Positions 1 to 10,307 of a stretch of 64,000 nt of DNA are shown here, in pieces (positions within the stretch are counted from its first letter, which is position 1; each line of letters begins with the position of its first letter). Both the position numbers and the translations under genes were made by a program. The stretch is taken from NCBI RefSeq assembly GCF_007744075.1, contig NZ_CP036266.1:6871248-6935247 (forward strand), in the 5' to 3' direction. The notes under the pieces are model-generated. The model did no database searches and was not told the DNA's origin. It saw only the letters and a list, made by a program, of their open reading frames with translations. The DNA is from Gimesia chilikensis. GTDB taxonomy: Bacteria; Planctomycetota; Planctomycetia; Planctomycetales; Planctomycetaceae.

Positions 1-434
1 CGCAGGGGATTTATCTCCCCCAGTTTCACAGTGCGACCGCTTTTGCAGGGTAGGTTGTGTCGGTAGTTTTTTCAGAGTTACCAACATACTTCATACGTAA
101 AGTATTCATATTTTATTGGATAATTTTGTCATAAATCCGTCTGTGATGAAGATCGTCTTTCTGTGCGCCAGGGACTGTAAAGCAGCTTACAAAAGCAGTT
201 CCAGCAGGCAGGACTTGCCTGTGACTTGAATACTCAAACTCTGAAATTCATGGAGTTTACAGCTCAGACTTTGAGAGCAGGAGAAGGGGGATTTTTCTTT
301 GATTTGCCGTATCCTCAGTTTAAATTCAGAGTCAAATGTGAGATAACTCACAGAACAATTGAGGAGCGGGTTTTAGTCTTAACTCCTTGTCTGAAATTTC
401 ATTCTTTCCTGCGATAGAAACGTTGAGGTATTCC
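1..434. other. Gene-free leader region upstream of the MNIO operon
   Basis: I see no convincing gene in this stretch. A 63-codon open frame at 226-417 has no ribosome binding site and no recognisable composition. Two small symmetric elements are visible. One is an interrupted inverted repeat ATACTT (86-91) / AAGTAT (100-105) around a TACGTA core. The other is a short hairpin CAGGCA (205-210) / TGCCTG (216-221). Either could belong to the 5' regulatory region of the precursor gene at 435, or to the end of an upstream gene outside the window. No clear -35/-10 pair could be fixed. Confidence 0.5.
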
Positions 435-974
435 ATGAAACGTCCTGATCTCAATCGACGTGATTTTAATCGAATGACACTCGCCGCCTTTGGTGGGATG
501 GTCGCTGGCTCGATGACGGGCTGCCAGCCAAAATCAGAACCAGCTCCGCAGACACCAGCAACCGGTGACGAAGCCGGTAGTACAACCTCTGAAGGACACG
601 ATGATCACGACCACGATCATGCCGATGATGCAGGAGCGGCAAAGGGAAATAAAGATGTCAGCCTGCTGATGAAAGAGCCACACGTCTGTCGTGGACTGAA
701 TACCTGCAAAGGAACGAACGCAGGCATCAAAAACGACTGTGCTGGCCTGGGTGCCTGTGCTTCTGTCGCCGAGCATGCCTGCTCTGGTCAGAACGAGTGC
801 AAAGGCCAGGGTGGCTGTGGCACCAACCCCGGTATGAATTCCTGTAAAGGAAAAGGGGGCTGTCATATTCCGCTGATGGAAGGTGCCTGGAAACTGGCCC
901 GCGCTGAATTCGAAAAAGCGATGGAAAAAGCCGGCAAGAAAGTCGGTCCCGCTCCAGAACCTAAAAAAGAGTAA
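435..974 (+). CDS. Cys/His-rich bufferin-like RiPP precursor with Tat-lipoprotein leader
   Basis: This 179-residue protein is the probable substrate of the MNIO enzyme encoded just downstream. The leader holds a twin-arginine motif (RR at 8-9 in NRRDFNR), a hydrophobic segment, and a lipobox MTGC ending at Cys30, so it should be exported folded and lipid-anchored. Residues 54-65 form a His/Asp tract suited to metal binding. The core at 85-143 has nine cysteines at 85, 91, 102, 108, 116, 122, 128, 137 and 143. These fall into five C-x-G-x3-C units (CX5C), three of them with NxCKG. The tail is charged. The start at 435 is preferred over the in-frame ATG at 387 because the leader begins there. 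BufA-type precursors of DUF692 operons also carry CxGxNxCKG repeats, and known bufferins sequester copper. The Tat lipoprotein leader is unusual. The copper role is inferred. Confidence 0.75.
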   Translation: MKRPDLNRRDFNRMTLAAFGGMVAGSMTGCQPKSEPAPQTPATGDEAGSTTSEGHDDHDHDHADDAGAAKGNKDVSLLMKEPHVCRGLNTCKGTNAGIKNDCAGLGACASVAEHACSGQNECKGQGGCGTNPGMNSCKGKGGCHIPLMEGAWKLARAEFEKAMEKAGKKVGPAPEPKKE

Positions 975-995
975 TCTCGCATAAAGTAAAATTCG

Positions 996-1038
996 ACAGG
1001 CTCCTGATCCAGCACATTGGATCAGGGGCCTGTTTTTT
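996..1038 (+). terminator. Intrinsic terminator between precursor and MNIO genes
   Basis: A 15-bp stem (996-1010 pairing with 1019-1033, one G-T pair, loop AGCACATT) is followed by a run of T residues to 1038. It lies 21 bases after the precursor stop and 62 bases before the MNIO start. It should end most transcripts after the precursor, leaving lower read-through into the enzyme genes. Confidence 0.85.
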
Positions 1039-1100
1039 GAGCCAGATCACCACACTGTAAACACAACAGCACCCGGGAAATCGCTCAGAGGGAAAGACGA

Positions 1101-2024
1101 ATGACAGAGCCGCGTCTTGGACATGAAAATCTCGGACTGGGAGTCGGTCTGCGGACCGTTCACTTCTCACACATTCTGGAACATCAGCCGGAAGTCGACT
1201 GGTTCGAAATCATTTCCGAAAACTTCATGGATTCACAGGGACGCCCCCGCCACGTTCTGGAGCAGATTGCAGAGCGCTACCCGATCGTCATGCATGGGGT
1301 CTCCCTCTCAATCGGCAGCACCGATCCCCTCAATCGGGACTATCTCCATAAACTGAAAACACTGGCCAACTCAGTTAATGCCCGCTGGATTTCAGACCAT
1401 GTCTGCTGGACGGGAGTGGCAGGTCGGAACACCCACGACCTGCTGCCGATTCCCTACACTGAAGCGACGCTGACGCATATCGTCGAACGGATTCGTACTG
1501 TTCAGGAGATTCTTGAACGGCCCCTGATCCTCGAAAATCCGAGCAGCTATCTCGAGTTTCAAGATTCGACCATGAGTGAGTGTGAATTTATCTGTCGCAT
1601 GGCGGAAGAAGCCGATTGTGGACTGCTGCTGGATGTCAATAACGTCTATGTCTCGAGCGTGAATCATGAATTTGATCCCGTCTCTTACGTAGAGTCAATT
1701 CCGGCAGAACGGGTCGTGCAGTGTCACCTGGCGGGCCACACGAACTGTGGCACGCATCTGATTGACACGCACAACGGCCATGTGGTGAATCCGGTCTGGA
1801 ATCTGTTTCAATTGCTACATCAGCGTACGGGAGGCGTGGCAACACTACTGGAATGGGACGCTGACATTCCGCCTTTCCCGACCGTGCACGCAGAAGTCTT
1901 AAAAGCCCGGCAATACATGGATGAAAACCTGGTCATCCCAGCGCAGGATTCCCCGGAAAGCGGGTCTATCCAGTCTGAGGCAATCCCGCATCCGGCTTCA
2001 TTTATCGCGGCAGAATTCGAATGA
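1101..2024 (+). CDS. MNIO-family (DUF692) multinuclear non-heme iron oxidative enzyme, BufB-like
   Basis: The 307-residue product is a TIM-barrel DUF692 protein, the family of multinuclear non-heme iron enzymes that modify cysteines in RiPP precursors (methanobactin MbnB, bufferin BufB). Family motifs are in order: MHGVS (64-68), SDH (98-100), LLPIPY near 114, LENPS (144-148), LLDVNN (176-181), HLAGH (209-213), DTH (222-224) and EWD (251-253). These supply the His, Asp and Glu metal ligands. The length is normal for the family. The start is the first ATG after a purine-rich AGAGGGAAAGA stretch. The stop overlaps the next gene by 4 bases (ATGA), so the two are translationally coupled. The likely substrate is the Cys-rich protein at 435-974. 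The chemistry on that substrate (for example thiooxazole or oxazolone formation) is inferred from the family. Confidence 0.9.
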   Translation: MTEPRLGHENLGLGVGLRTVHFSHILEHQPEVDWFEIISENFMDSQGRPRHVLEQIAERYPIVMHGVSLSIGSTDPLNRDYLHKLKTLANSVNARWISDHVCWTGVAGRNTHDLLPIPYTEATLTHIVERIRTVQEILERPLILENPSSYLEFQDSTMSECEFICRMAEEADCGLLLDVNNVYVSSVNHEFDPVSYVESIPAERVVQCHLAGHTNCGTHLIDTHNGHVVNPVWNLFQLLHQRTGGVATLLEWDADIPPFPTVHAEVLKARQYMDENLVIPAQDSPESGSIQSEAIPHPASFIAAEFE

Positions 2025-2902
2025 GTCAGCAACCACGCCATCTGGAGCAGATTCAGCGCTGGATGCAGGCCGTAATTACCTGGCCGGGTGAAATCCAGGA
2101 TGGAATTGCTTCAGAGGATGCGCAGTCTGCGATCCCTCTCAACCCTGATGAACTCGAAACCGTGATTACCCGCTCCAGCCAATTGACCAGTCAGGAACGC
2201 ATTGGAATCTATGCCAACGCCTATTACGCCCGGTTACTGGAATGCCTGAGTGAGGAATACCCGGCACTGATCGCGGTTCTGGGAGAGACCGCATTTGGGG
2301 CTTTCTGTATGCAATATCTGCAGTCGTGTCCCTCAACCAGTTATACCCTGGGGGATCTGGGCGCCCAGTTCCCTGAATTCCTCTCTGAAAACAGACCGGC
2401 TCGGGAACAGTCAGACGAACCGGACTGGACCGATTTCCTCGTGGAAGTCGCAACGCTGGAGCGACTTTACAGCGAAGTCTTCGATGGACCGGGCATCGAG
2501 CAGACGCCCCTGTTGACGCCGGAAAAACTGAACTCCCTCTCTCCCGAAGAGTGGCCTGAACTGAAACTGCAGTTAGCGCCCTGCTTCCGACTGTGCCGGT
2601 TCCACTATCCTGTGCACGAATTCATTACCTCTGTCCGGAAGTCAGAAGAGCCAGCCATTCCGGTCCCCCAAACCACCTGGCTGGCGATCACCCGCCGCAA
2701 CTTTGTTGTCCGACGCGAGAGCATTTCCGAGCCTGAATACTTACTGCTTTCACAATTGCAGGAGGGACGGAGAATCGGAGAAGCGATAGCCGTGCTGATA
2801 GAAGCAAAACTGCTGGATCCCGAAGATCTCGTCGCTCATCTGCACGAATGGTTTCGCCACTGGACTGCCGCGGCGTTCATTATTGGATTTACAACTGAGT
2901 AA
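2021..2902 (+). CDS. DUF2063 partner protein of the MNIO enzyme, BufC-like
   Basis: The 293-residue protein matches the DUF2063 pattern ('putative DNA-binding domain'). The signature segment around 59-97 reads RIGIYANAYYARLLECL, then a EYPALIAVLG turn. It is followed by TLGDLGAQFPEFL near 110-122 and the VATLERLYSEVFDG segment near 145. In MNIO systems this family acts as a partner that binds the precursor leader and presents it to the oxidase; the older DNA-binding label is not supported by its context. The start overlaps the stop of the MNIO gene in an ATGA, so both are made in fixed ratio. The C-terminal half (about 180-293) is the second lobe of the family. No terminator was seen after it. 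Confidence 0.85.
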   Translation: MSQQPRHLEQIQRWMQAVITWPGEIQDGIASEDAQSAIPLNPDELETVITRSSQLTSQERIGIYANAYYARLLECLSEEYPALIAVLGETAFGAFCMQYLQSCPSTSYTLGDLGAQFPEFLSENRPAREQSDEPDWTDFLVEVATLERLYSEVFDGPGIEQTPLLTPEKLNSLSPEEWPELKLQLAPCFRLCRFHYPVHEFITSVRKSEEPAIPVPQTTWLAITRRNFVVRRESISEPEYLLLSQLQEGRRIGEAIAVLIEAKLLDPEDLVAHLHEWFRHWTAAAFIIGFTTE

Positions 2903-7899: not shown

Positions 7900-8421
7900 A
7901 TGAAACGTTTTGTGGTCAACCTGTTCGTGCTGCTGGTGCTGTCAGTCAATCTGCCAGGCTGCGGCTACACCGTCGGCAATTCGTATCAGCCCGACGTACA
8001 GACAGTGTATGTACCTATTTTTGAAAATCAGACTCTGCGTCGTGGATATGAGTACCAGTTAACCGAGGCCGTGCAGCGTAAGATTCAGTCACGAACTCCT
8101 TTCCGACTGGCCAAAGGCGTAGAAGCTGATACCCGGCTTACCGGGACCATCAGAAAAATCAATAAATCAGTATTGGGGACCACTCAGAATGACGATCCTC
8201 GTAATCTGAATCTGGAGTTTGTCGTGGATGTCACCTGGGAAGATATGCGAAGTGGCCAAATTCTGTCACAGCAGCAGGTTCCCATTACTGCCGATGTCGT
8301 CAACCTGGTTTCCCAGGCTTCGTTTGCACCGGAAGTCGGGCAATCCCTGGCGACAGCGACCCAGAGAGTCACCGATGAGCTGGCCAATCAAATTGTACAA
8401 CTTATGGAAGCCCCCTGGTAA
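7900..8421 (+). CDS. LptE-like LPS assembly lipoprotein
   Basis: The 173-residue protein has a short lipoprotein signal ending in LPGC (Cys21). The mature start CGYTVGNSYQPDVQTVYVPIF resembles LptE family proteins, where a CGY/CGF start is followed by VxVPxFxN. The VYVPIFENQTLRRGYEYQLTEAV segment (about 36-58), a LTGTIRKI strand (about 83-90) and the final ATQRVTDELANQIV helix (about 150-163) also fit. LptE plugs the LptD barrel and delivers lipopolysaccharide to the outer leaflet. In planctomycetes this family is one sign that the outer membrane is real; LptD itself is not in this window. The gene lies 45 bases after the BamD-like gene. Confidence 0.75.
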   Translation: MKRFVVNLFVLLVLSVNLPGCGYTVGNSYQPDVQTVYVPIFENQTLRRGYEYQLTEAVQRKIQSRTPFRLAKGVEADTRLTGTIRKINKSVLGTTQNDDPRNLNLEFVVDVTWEDMRSGQILSQQQVPITADVVNLVSQASFAPEVGQSLATATQRVTDELANQIVQLMEAPW

Positions 8422-8608
8422 TTTTGATTCACAAACACACATGGTCAGGATCTCTCTATCCTGATAAAATCCTATACCATTTCAGAAACCCAACAATTTA
8501 AACCATCCCCACCTTTCAGATGAACCTGTCTACTACACAAGTACGGATTGCGAAATCTCATCGGGCCTCAAGCCAGACCTGCAATTCAGGGAAGGATTTG
8601 GATATCAA

Positions 8609-9751
8609 ATGAAGTCAAAACCTGTCTTACACCAATGTGCTCTCATGTTATTCTCCTGGGCGATGCTGACACTACTTGTGACCGCGTCTCTCGAGGCGCA
8701 GACCGATCAGCGAAAACCACGCCCCGACCCGGCCGGCGCAGTAATGCAGGTCCAGGAACTCCCCAAAGCGCTGGAAAACATTCTGGAGAAATGGGAAAAG
8801 GAATCAGGAAAAATCAATAAACTGGAAGGCGAACATGTTCGCATCTGGTATGACGATGTTTTCTGTGTCGAAAAACGTTCCGAGGGAAAATTCTATTACG
8901 AGAAACCAGATAAAGGCCGGATCGATATTACCGGCATGAAAATTGGTAAGAATGCCAAGCCGGGTAAAGTGAATCCCAAAACAGGAAAACCCTTCATATT
9001 ACAACCTGGCGAAAATGAGAAATGGATCTGTGACGGACATCGGATTTTCAAAATTGATGAAGATGAAAAAGCGTACGAAGTCTTTCCGATCCCCCTGGAG
9101 CGTCGTGGTGCCAATATCATGGAAGGCCCCCTGCCATTCCTGTTCGGGATGCCTGCAAAAACTGCTAAGCAACGCTATTATTTAAAACTGATAGATAACT
9201 CACCACAACAAATTGTCATCGCTGTCAAACCACGTCGGCGGGCAGATGCGGCAAATTACCAGGAAGCCAAAGTCCTGTTGGATCCGAATACGTATCTGCC
9301 GCGAGCTGTGCAGTTAATTCACCCAGGCGGGAATCAGTCCACTGTTTACAGTTTCCAAAAAGTGGAAGCGAACAAAGCCAGAGGCATCATCGCTACAGTA
9401 TTCGGAAACAGTCCATTTACACCGGACCTGGAAGGCTATCAGCTCCAGGGTAAAGTGGTCGCTCAAGCCGATGGCGGTCAGGAGCTACAACCTGCTCCGC
9501 AGCAACAGATCGCTCCTATTCAGCATGCTACTTTTAAAGTACCAAATATGGTCGGACATGACTTTAAATCCGCCAGAAAAGTACTGGAAGATATGGGCCT
9601 GAAACCTCAGTTTCACCGAGGCGATCCTGCAGGACAACCCAAACTGATCTACCAGGTTTATCAGCAGGTTCCCGTACCAGGTTCTGCAGCTCAGAAGGGC
9701 CAGACGATTCATCTGAAACTCTACGTCGATCCGAGTAAAGCACAAAACTGA
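8609..9751 (+). CDS. TIGR03009-type secreted protein with C-terminal PASTA domain
   Basis: The 380-residue protein begins with a signal peptide (hydrophobic about 12-28, ending near SLEAQ). Residues about 60-270 match the planctomycete TIGR03009 type, a LolA-like beta-sheet fold. The region contains VRIWYDDVFCVEKRSEGKFYYEKPDKGRID, then WICDGHRIFKIDEDEKAYEV, then PLPFLFGM. Proteins of this fold usually bind lipids or lipoproteins, but the role here is unknown. The end (311-375) is a PASTA domain: VPNMVGHDFKSARKVLEDMGL, followed by QVPVPGSAAQKGQTIHLKLYV. PASTA domains bind peptidoglycan or beta-lactams, usually on Ser/Thr kinases, so this pairing on a secreted protein is unusual. It is followed by a strong bidirectional terminator. 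Confidence 0.75.
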   Translation: MKSKPVLHQCALMLFSWAMLTLLVTASLEAQTDQRKPRPDPAGAVMQVQELPKALENILEKWEKESGKINKLEGEHVRIWYDDVFCVEKRSEGKFYYEKPDKGRIDITGMKIGKNAKPGKVNPKTGKPFILQPGENEKWICDGHRIFKIDEDEKAYEVFPIPLERRGANIMEGPLPFLFGMPAKTAKQRYYLKLIDNSPQQIVIAVKPRRRADAANYQEAKVLLDPNTYLPRAVQLIHPGGNQSTVYSFQKVEANKARGIIATVFGNSPFTPDLEGYQLQGKVVAQADGGQELQPAPQQQIAPIQHATFKVPNMVGHDFKSARKVLEDMGLKPQFHRGDPAGQPKLIYQVYQQVPVPGSAAQKGQTIHLKLYVDPSKAQN

Positions 9752-9780
9752 GTCGGGTAAGAACAAGAAATAACTCATAG

Positions 9781-9813
9781 AAAAGCCCTGGGGAAACCAC
9801 CCCGGGGCTTTTT
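9781..9813. terminator. Bidirectional terminator between the TIGR03009 gene and smpB
   Basis: The hairpin AAAAGCCCTGGGG / CCCCGGGGCTTTTT (loop AAACCA, one G-T pair) sits between two convergent genes. It has A residues on one side and T residues on the other, so it can stop transcription from both. Confidence 0.9.
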
Positions 9814-10307
9814 CAGTTATTGCGGGCGCGCATCGCACGTTGAATATCCATGCGAGCGGAATCTTTCTTGAGCTTCTCTCGCTTGTCGTGCAGTTTACGC
9901 CCCTTGGCGATTCCCAGTTTCACCTTCACCAGGCCACGGGTGAAGTAGACGGTCAATGGAATCAGCGTCAGACTTGAGTTCTCGGACCGCTCAGCAAATT
10001 TGCGGATCTCGGCTTTCTTCATCAGCAGCTTCCGGGGACGCCGGGTCTGATGATTCATTGTGTTCGCCTGCGGGTAGAGGGCGATATCACAGTTAAAGAG
10101 CCAGACTTCTCCATCCTGCACGCGGGCAAACGCCTCTTCGATGGAGATCTTGTTCGCGCGGATGCTTTTGACCTCGCTCCCCGCCAGCATAATTCCGCAA
10201 TCGAGTGTATCCAGAATTTCGTAATTGTGGCGGGCCTTACGATTCTGGCAGACGGTACGTGAATTGGGATCTTCTTTCGAAGCTTTCTTCTTTCCCTTTT
10301 TACCCAT
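9813..10307 (-). CDS. smpB: SsrA-binding protein SmpB
   Basis: SmpB binds tmRNA and brings it to stalled ribosomes for trans-translation. The 164-residue protein has the expected length. Its OB-fold shows the family hallmarks NRKARHNYEILDTLDCGIML, then GSEVKSIRANKISIEEAFA (about 43-62). These are followed by VWLFNCDIALYPQAN (about 68-82) and HQTRRPRKLL (about 86-95). The C-terminal basic tail has GIAKGRKLHDKREKLKKDS. The N-terminus is Lys-rich. A CAGGAG site precedes the ATG by 8 bases. The tmRNA gene was not found in this window. The gene lies downstream of a minus-strand PH-domain membrane protein, with about 160 bases between. Confidence 0.95.
   Translation of the reverse strand: MGKKGKKKASKEDPNSRTVCQNRKARHNYEILDTLDCGIMLAGSEVKSIRANKISIEEAFARVQDGEVWLFNCDIALYPQANTMNHQTRRPRKLLMKKAEIRKFAERSENSSLTLIPLTVYFTRGLVKVKLGIAKGRKLHDKREKLKKDSARMDIQRAMRARNN

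Follow-up and report, generated by a model that had tools for sequence, protein, structure and literature searches.

A bufferin-type operon of Gimesia chilikensis whose lipobox-bearing precursor carries a Tat-type signal

Bufferins are reported with Sec signals, about 16% of the Buf2 precursors are predicted lipoproteins, and the Buf2 chemistry is incompletely identified in print (main text of PMC12452194). The class was named captophorins, copper-associated thiooxazole metallophores (PMC13097082), and an MNIO-modified tri-acylated lipoprotein was produced in E. coli (main text of PMC12636315). Here we analysed a window, that is, the whole stretch of 64,000 nucleotides, of Gimesia chilikensis (NZ_CP036266.1, positions 6,871,248 to 6,935,247 of the forward strand), and focus on three of its genes, which encode a Cys-rich precursor, an MNIO (DUF692) enzyme and a DUF2063 partner (Table 1). 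We propose, with a probability of about 0.6, that they form a bufferin (captophorin)-type operon whose precursor is routed through twin-arginine translocation (Tat), probably lipid-anchored, modified before export and metal-binding. The proposal is read from the sequence: gene order and families, a conserved RRxF signal, the Cys core, and a lipobox in most relatives.

With Buf2/BufA2 (NF050166; main text of PMC12452194), the operon shares the gene order, a BufB-type MNIO, a CxGxNxCKG core, a signal peptide and the known lipoprotein forms. The window's precursor differs in its Tat-type instead of Sec signal, its nine core cysteines (an apparent eroded 12-Cys duplication), its C-terminal helix and a score under the model cut-off. 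The captophorins, in the main account of PMC13097082, likewise have an MNIO, a type-1 DUF2063 partner with a RiPP recognition element (RRE; RiPP, ribosomally synthesised and post-translationally modified peptide) and a Cys-rich precursor with Cys-Lys motifs; the window contains the corresponding MNIO, a partner with PF09836 and PF22106, and a Cys-rich precursor with Cys-Lys-Gly. Captophorins have the thiooxazole, whereas that of the window's peptide is only proposed, and the captophorin survey tree covers Pseudomonadota. The DAG-RiPPs NedA and DybA (main text of PMC12636315) are also MNIO substrates with a lipobox, which in the window is known from the sequence, and they differ in being of the EGKCG oxazolin type or the ChrH type. 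Closest to home, the 12-Cys Buf2-like planctomycete precursors L065, L073 and L078 have a homologous core, the latter two also with Tat/lipobox signals, and differ by two six-Cys repeats and the lack of the C-terminal W...R..FE helix.

Table 1. Positions of the operon's features, counted from the first nucleotide of the window
Feature	Position	Strand	Basis
16-bp palindrome TGTGAGATAACTCACA, 6-bp arms, 4-bp spacer; candidate operator	337..352	.	conservation in the genus
Precursor gene, 179 aa	435..974	+	divergent Buf2/BufA2 relative
Twin-arginine motif R8-R9-D10-F11	456..467	+	conservation in alignment A1
Hydrophobic (h-) region with A18-x2-G21-x3-G25; proposed leader/recognition element	474..521	+	motif counts
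Lipobox-like MTGC; putative lipidation at Cys30	513..524	+	lipobox in relatives; Lgt and LspA present
Linker with His/Asp cluster HDDHDHDH; candidate extra metal site	525..686	+	sequence
Nine-Cys core, three of the Cys within Cys-Lys-Gly; putative thiooxazole sites	687..863	+	Cys conservation in A1
C-terminal helix, W...R..FE conserved; characteristic of the window-type subclass	879..929	+	conservation in A1; AlphaFold
Terminator-like hairpin and T-run between precursor and MNIO	995..1038	+	folding
MNIO (DUF692) enzyme, BufB type, 307 aa	1101..2024	+	NF050167, PF05114
DUF2063 partner (BufC, type-1 partner), 293 aa	2021..2902	+	PF09836, PF22106

At the operon level, the three genes are co-oriented, the MNIO and DUF2063 reading frames overlap by 4 nt, and the order precursor, MNIO, DUF2063 is that of Buf2/BufA2 bufferins. 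A precursor orthologue was found in 32 of the 59 relatives searched, and all 17 same-genus genomes (own genome included) have it followed by the MNIO and then the DUF2063 gene. Since the three genes recur across all 17, the operon is not a chance arrangement. The precursor of one Gimesia record (L122) is 81% identical to the window's. The MNIO matched PF05114 (1e-110, 369.6 bits; cut-off 25), passed the NCBIfam model of the bufferin maturase BufB, NF050167 (363.3 bits; cut-off 310), and scored below the cut-offs of the NCBIfam HvfB, ApyH, ChrH and MbnB models; a genome search found it to be the only MNIO. It aligned to the structures 3bww, 8hci and MbnB over the motifs HG, DH, LEN, LDxNN, HxAG and DxH, some of which are absent from individual structures among the three; we take these motifs to carry the iron ligands. 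The DUF2063 protein matched PF09836 (66.8 bits; cut-off 27.2) and PF22106, the NGO1945 C-terminal domain (31.4 bits; cut-off 27), and the part covered by the latter may be an RRE-like domain. It stayed under the cut-off of the HvfC model (63.6 bits; cut-off 142), and a sequence search of solved structures gave no match for it. With the MNIO over the BufB cut-off and both partner domains over those of Pfam, the bufferin-type operon that an earlier note on this DNA had claimed is borne out.

Of the precursor's ten cysteines, one belongs to the lipobox and the other nine to the core, with a His/Asp-rich linker in between. We aligned 26 window-type precursors (alignment A1), the others being 43-80% identical to the window's. 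Seven of the core cysteines are invariant in A1 and two nearly so; in the C-terminal helix R156 and E160 are invariant, and W152 and F159 nearly so. AlphaFold predicted this helix at residues 149-165 (block predicted local distance difference test score, pLDDT, 74-77) in a single-chain model with a mean pLDDT of 51.

For the signal, the precursor's N-terminus, MKRPDLNRRDFNRMTLAAFGGMVAGSMTGC, combines RRxF, a short uncharged h-region and the lipobox-like MTGC. R8, R9 and F11 are invariant in the 26 A1 members, with any of D, N, G, Q, K, E, H or R at position 10; the twin-arginine motif that the same note had pointed out is thus confirmed. To collect relatives, one core peptide pattern was scanned across 84,980 species, each represented by a single genome, which gave 388 precursors; all of the best 80 had RR, with F (78) or L (2) at +3. 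The least biased count is that of the planctomycete sample drawn through the MNIO instead of the precursor. This sample comprised 90 loci, top-scoring among the matches listed, and the 80 planctomycete loci counted (9 from the window's genus) included 37 RRxF precursors, 22 without the motif, 2 ambiguous ones and 19 loci where no precursor was found; 63 of the 80 had a DUF2063 match. The h-regions of the 37 Tat-type precursors were less hydrophobic (median Kyte-Doolittle 1.59) than those of the 22 others (2.05; 2 ambiguous; p 7e-6), where L019 had been re-labelled non-RR by hand and both L019 and L093 were excluded from the h-region statistics. A lower hydrophobicity of the h-region is expected of Tat signals. 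The NCBI Tat-signal model TIGR01409 matched 7 of the 26 A1 members at E<=1, and L017 exceeded its cut-off (17.4 vs 16.7). A single match was found in the window's genome for each of TatC, Lgt and LspA, so that the traits of a Tat lipoprotein (Tat signal cleaved by signal peptidase II, TAT/SPII) are present: RRxPhi, a moderately hydrophobic h-region, a lipobox (non-consensus at -3) and the Tat, Lgt and LspA genes. The assignment to Tat rests on motif and conservation rather than on a signal-peptide predictor; the Tat-type signal appears well supported by this conservation, and the export route looks new.

An ordinary Sec lipoprotein bufferin, its two arginines being a mere positive n-region of a Sec/SPII signal as in the lipoprotein Buf2 precursors already published (PMC12452194), is in our judgement an unlikely account. 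It would fit with the lipobox in 11 of the 22 non-RR precursors on the MNIO tree and with an h-region motif common to Tat and non-Tat members. Yet Sec needs positive charge only, while RR and F are invariant around a residue that can be any of eight amino acids, and the h-regions of the Tat set are less hydrophobic. Moreover, RRxPhi was infrequent among other lipobox candidates: of the 52 crude candidates that an 864-kb part of the window's genome yielded, 3 had it, one being the window's precursor. Tat lipoproteins seem to be uncommon in the genome.

In the MNIO tree, which was built with a quick method and carries Shimodaira-Hasegawa-like approximate likelihood ratio test (SH-aLRT) support only, we counted the loci other than L031-L060 (obtained via the precursor) and L111-L120 (distant MNIOs). 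The window-type clade (31 rows, SH-aLRT 98) held 28 Tat-type precursors, 2 loci without a precursor found and 1 precursor without signal. A second group (n=16), mostly with 12-Cys precursors, was mixed: nine Tat, six non-RR and one ambiguous. Counting only Tat and non-Tat loci, at least four changes between the two are required, and for Tat against all others at least six. By label, the best 80 of the 388 relatives comprised 68 planctomycete, 9 verrucomicrobial or Limisphaerales and 3 other bacterial records; the verrucomicrobial assignments need care because many records are metagenome bins. One relative, L132, reads RRDF, and its linker is interrupted by a stop codon. An MNIO lay in the same locus in 54 of these 80 relatives, 48 of them with a DUF2063 match, so the precursor does not belong to an unrelated family devoid of MNIO neighbours.

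A second element of the signal, AxxGxxxG, was present within the first 45 residues of 33 of the 37 Tat-type and 19 of the 22 other planctomycete bufferin precursors (20 non-RR, 2 ambiguous), against 1 of 39 signal-like N-termini of the same genome. The pattern was picked after viewing the sequences and these background N-termini were hand-picked from the lipobox candidates, so the p-values are indicative only. Its retention across Tat and non-Tat signals suggests that it serves something besides export, possibly as a recognition element of the maturase or its partner; if so, it would reveal the basis of recognition in these bufferins. Antoine et al. refer to unpublished findings on a Buf1 system which support the view that the sequence recognised by BufB-BufC includes the signal peptide (main text of PMC12452194). 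A universal bufferin motif was rejected: among seven Pseudomonadota Buf2-like precursors (two identical) only L253, assigned by eye, had AxxGxxxG, and outside the h-region, and none of four DUF2282 precursors had it.

In the mechanism that we propose, the DUF2063 partner would bind the precursor in the cytoplasm, perhaps via AxxGxxxG of the signal, and pass the core to the MNIO, which would convert several core cysteines, most likely those of the Cys-Lys-Gly motifs, into 5-thiooxazoles by oxidation. Once finished, the peptide would leave via Tat and, as Tat exports after synthesis, modification can precede export. Lgt and LspA would then lipidate and trim the peptide at Cys30, leaving it at the outer surface of a membrane, where it could bind surplus Cu(I) or some other soft or borderline metal. 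Copper specificity as such was rejected, since the sequence analysis gives it no support.

The same modified, Tat-exported and lipidated peptide could have a task other than copper buffering, either binding Zn, Ni, Co or Hg via the His/Asp linker and the Cys core, or metal sensing or delivery to a membrane enzyme; this overlaps with our proposal except for the metal. It would suit the HDDHDHDH linker of the window's precursor, the 12 of 54 distinct Tat-type precursors with at least four linker histidines, the adjoining YHS-domain and thioredoxin-like genes, and the other metals that were proposed for some bufferins (main text of PMC12452194). However, the linker His cluster occurs mainly in one genus and, according to the literature, the core chemistry is the one tied to copper in the studied members, and we regard a task of this kind as rather improbable.

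Several observations weigh against a Tat-routed, lipid-anchored and modified bufferin. The window's precursor itself gave no match to TIGR01409, and the 12-Cys Tat-type precursor L073 stayed below its cut-off (13.1 vs 16.7). The best 80 relatives were ranked by likeness to a query that bears the Tat-type signal, and they are not independent. Against the BufA2 model NF050166, the window's precursor scored 26.7 bits, under the cut-off of 60, and its core has nine cysteines, where 6 or 12 would be expected of Buf2/BufA2. The His/Asp cluster of the linker is not general, being largely confined to the window's genus. In 26 of the 80 relatives there was no MNIO in the locus examined, at least three of them lying on contigs that break off shortly downstream of the gene; 18 of these 26 genomes were searched, and an MNIO was found elsewhere in 17 and none in one. 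Inside the window-type clade, locus L093 encodes, immediately ahead of the MNIO (1446-2465), a 340-aa signal-less protein that contains a bufferin-like Cys domain. As for the lipid anchor, the lipobox has a non-consensus Met at -3, the same-genus homologue L047 reads MYGC, and 8 of the 37 Tat-type precursors lack a lipobox; for these reasons lipid anchoring is less firmly supported than Tat routing. The lipid anchor claimed by the earlier note thus holds in part: the lipobox-like MTGC is there, and a lipobox was found in 29 of the 37 Tat-type precursors of the MNIO-drawn sample and in 57 of 79 precursor-drawn relatives (L132 left out), but it is weak in the window, not general and not new.

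Regarding the family placement, relatives bridge the score gap and thereby link the window's precursor to BufA2: all 26 A1 members matched NF050166 at E<=1, and L002, 53% identical to the window's precursor and with 11 Cys, passed it at 60.8 bits. The precursor is best described as a divergent Buf2-related variant, distinct from BufA2 proper. The 12-Cys planctomycete precursor L065 is 47% identical to it over 78 aligned positions, and the number of core cysteines runs from 12 in L065 to 11 in L002 and L062 and 9 in the window. The simplest reading would be a duplicated six-Cys Buf2 domain after Cys loss.

The least probable account is an unmodified, metallothionein-like Cys-rich lipoprotein next to an MNIO that matures another peptide or only some of the relatives, for which the 26 loci without an MNIO and the one genome where none was found (genome completeness may account for it) could speak, and against which stand the gene order in 17 of 17 genus genomes, the BufB-type MNIO adjacent to the precursor as the only one of its genome, and Cys-Lys-Gly cores resembling the Cys-Lys precursor group in the main account of PMC13097082. 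Because of those same loci and that genome, some members of the family may act unmodified. Tat-type precursors without an MNIO in the locus are seen at L131, L135, L139, L141, L142 and others, for which modification in trans and unmodified use are the alternatives.

Returning to the Tat-routed bufferin, lipid anchoring as its novelty is ruled out by the lipoprotein bufferins already in print (PMC12452194, PMC12636315), which makes the finding less surprising than first claimed; what may be new here is the Tat-type signal. The new planctomycete subclass put forward at first therefore stands as a distinct subclass with a conserved Tat-type signal, also present in genomes titled Verrucomicrobia, and not through its lipid anchor. 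'Tat' and 'planctomyc' are absent from the main text of PMC12452194 (Tat calls may exist in its figures and supplements), 'Tat' and 'twin-arginine' from the main text of PMC12636315, and 'Tat' from PMC13097082, in each case supplements aside. A literature search for Tat with bufferin or MNIO returned none reporting a Tat-routed MNIO peptide among the matches listed, and narrower searches turned up only work on a moss mitochondrion and on a lantibiotic.

A tentative extension, which we hold to be somewhat less probable than its negation, is a RiPP subclass in which Tat would serve as a gate that keeps modification ahead of export. In its signal, the RRxF export tag would stand together with an AxxGxxxG leader that the MNIO partner reads, and only the modified (perhaps metal-loaded or folded) peptide would be exported and lipid-anchored. 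This would be the first MNIO peptide, and to our knowledge among the first RiPPs, to be exported by Tat, spread through Planctomycetota and some Verrucomicrobiota. Related maturases adjoin both Tat-tagged and Sec-like-tagged precursors, thus the order of modification and export is testable in a natural family. The variant is kept across related bacteria and could show how a modified peptide is retained until finished.

At the level of control elements, the palindrome upstream of the operon has CRP-like half sites and is invariant in the 17 same-genus loci; its arms are retained, with a changed spacer, in three further genera or records (L014/L053, L025, L182). The pattern TGTGAGN4CTCACA was present in 17/17 genus genomes, with a second site in five, and in 36 of 173 upstream regions, most of them from the window's genus. 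It occurs at one place in the window's genome, as does the reversed control pattern, so the case for the palindrome rests on position and conservation. A wider CRP-like regulon was rejected (7 sites vs 5 for the reversed control), L255 being the nearest site in sequence. A sigma-70 promoter scan found 2 promoters vs 2.5 in shuffles.

The hairpin between precursor and MNIO was recognised by visual inspection and folding, and the terminator scan did not list it; it has 17 bp and leads into six T (-32 kcal/mol, z -7.18). Its consensus in the 17 genus sequences is a 9-pair stem, eight pairs being kept in all and one broken in two, with co-variation in only one of the nine pairs. Among 84 loci folded, where genus genomes are partly double-counted and shuffles were not used, 27 had a stable intergenic hairpin followed by at least four T in 8 bases. 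We read the hairpin as a putative leaky terminator, whose effect would be an excess of precursor over enzyme.

Beyond the window, further Cys-rich proteins lie next to MNIOs. The best MNIO match of a plasmid collection (L244:3-1430, 55% identity) is from a Pseudoalteromonas plasmid and is preceded by a gene for a protein of at least 475 aa, which has a bufferin-like Cys domain close to its C-terminus (E 3e-07 to the window's precursor in a two-sequence comparison). This protein matched nothing in Pfam or NCBIfam, and a Pfam scan of the L093 protein gave no match either. The same plasmid collection searched with the window's precursor and with a 12-Cys precursor gave no match for either. At L113, a planctomycete TIGR04222 membrane protein (92.8 bits; cut-off 43) with a Cys-Gly tail precedes the MNIO, and similar tails are found at L112 and L114-L120. 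Pfam DUF7640 was matched at E<=1 by 7 of the 26 A1 precursors (best 1.5e-07) and may be a wider relative of them. Finally, the upstream neighbours of the operon (L202) encode a YHS-domain protein (8013-8891, + strand) and a thioredoxin-like (DUF255) protein whose YHS match is below cut-off (9030-9842, - strand), a possible metal or redox context.

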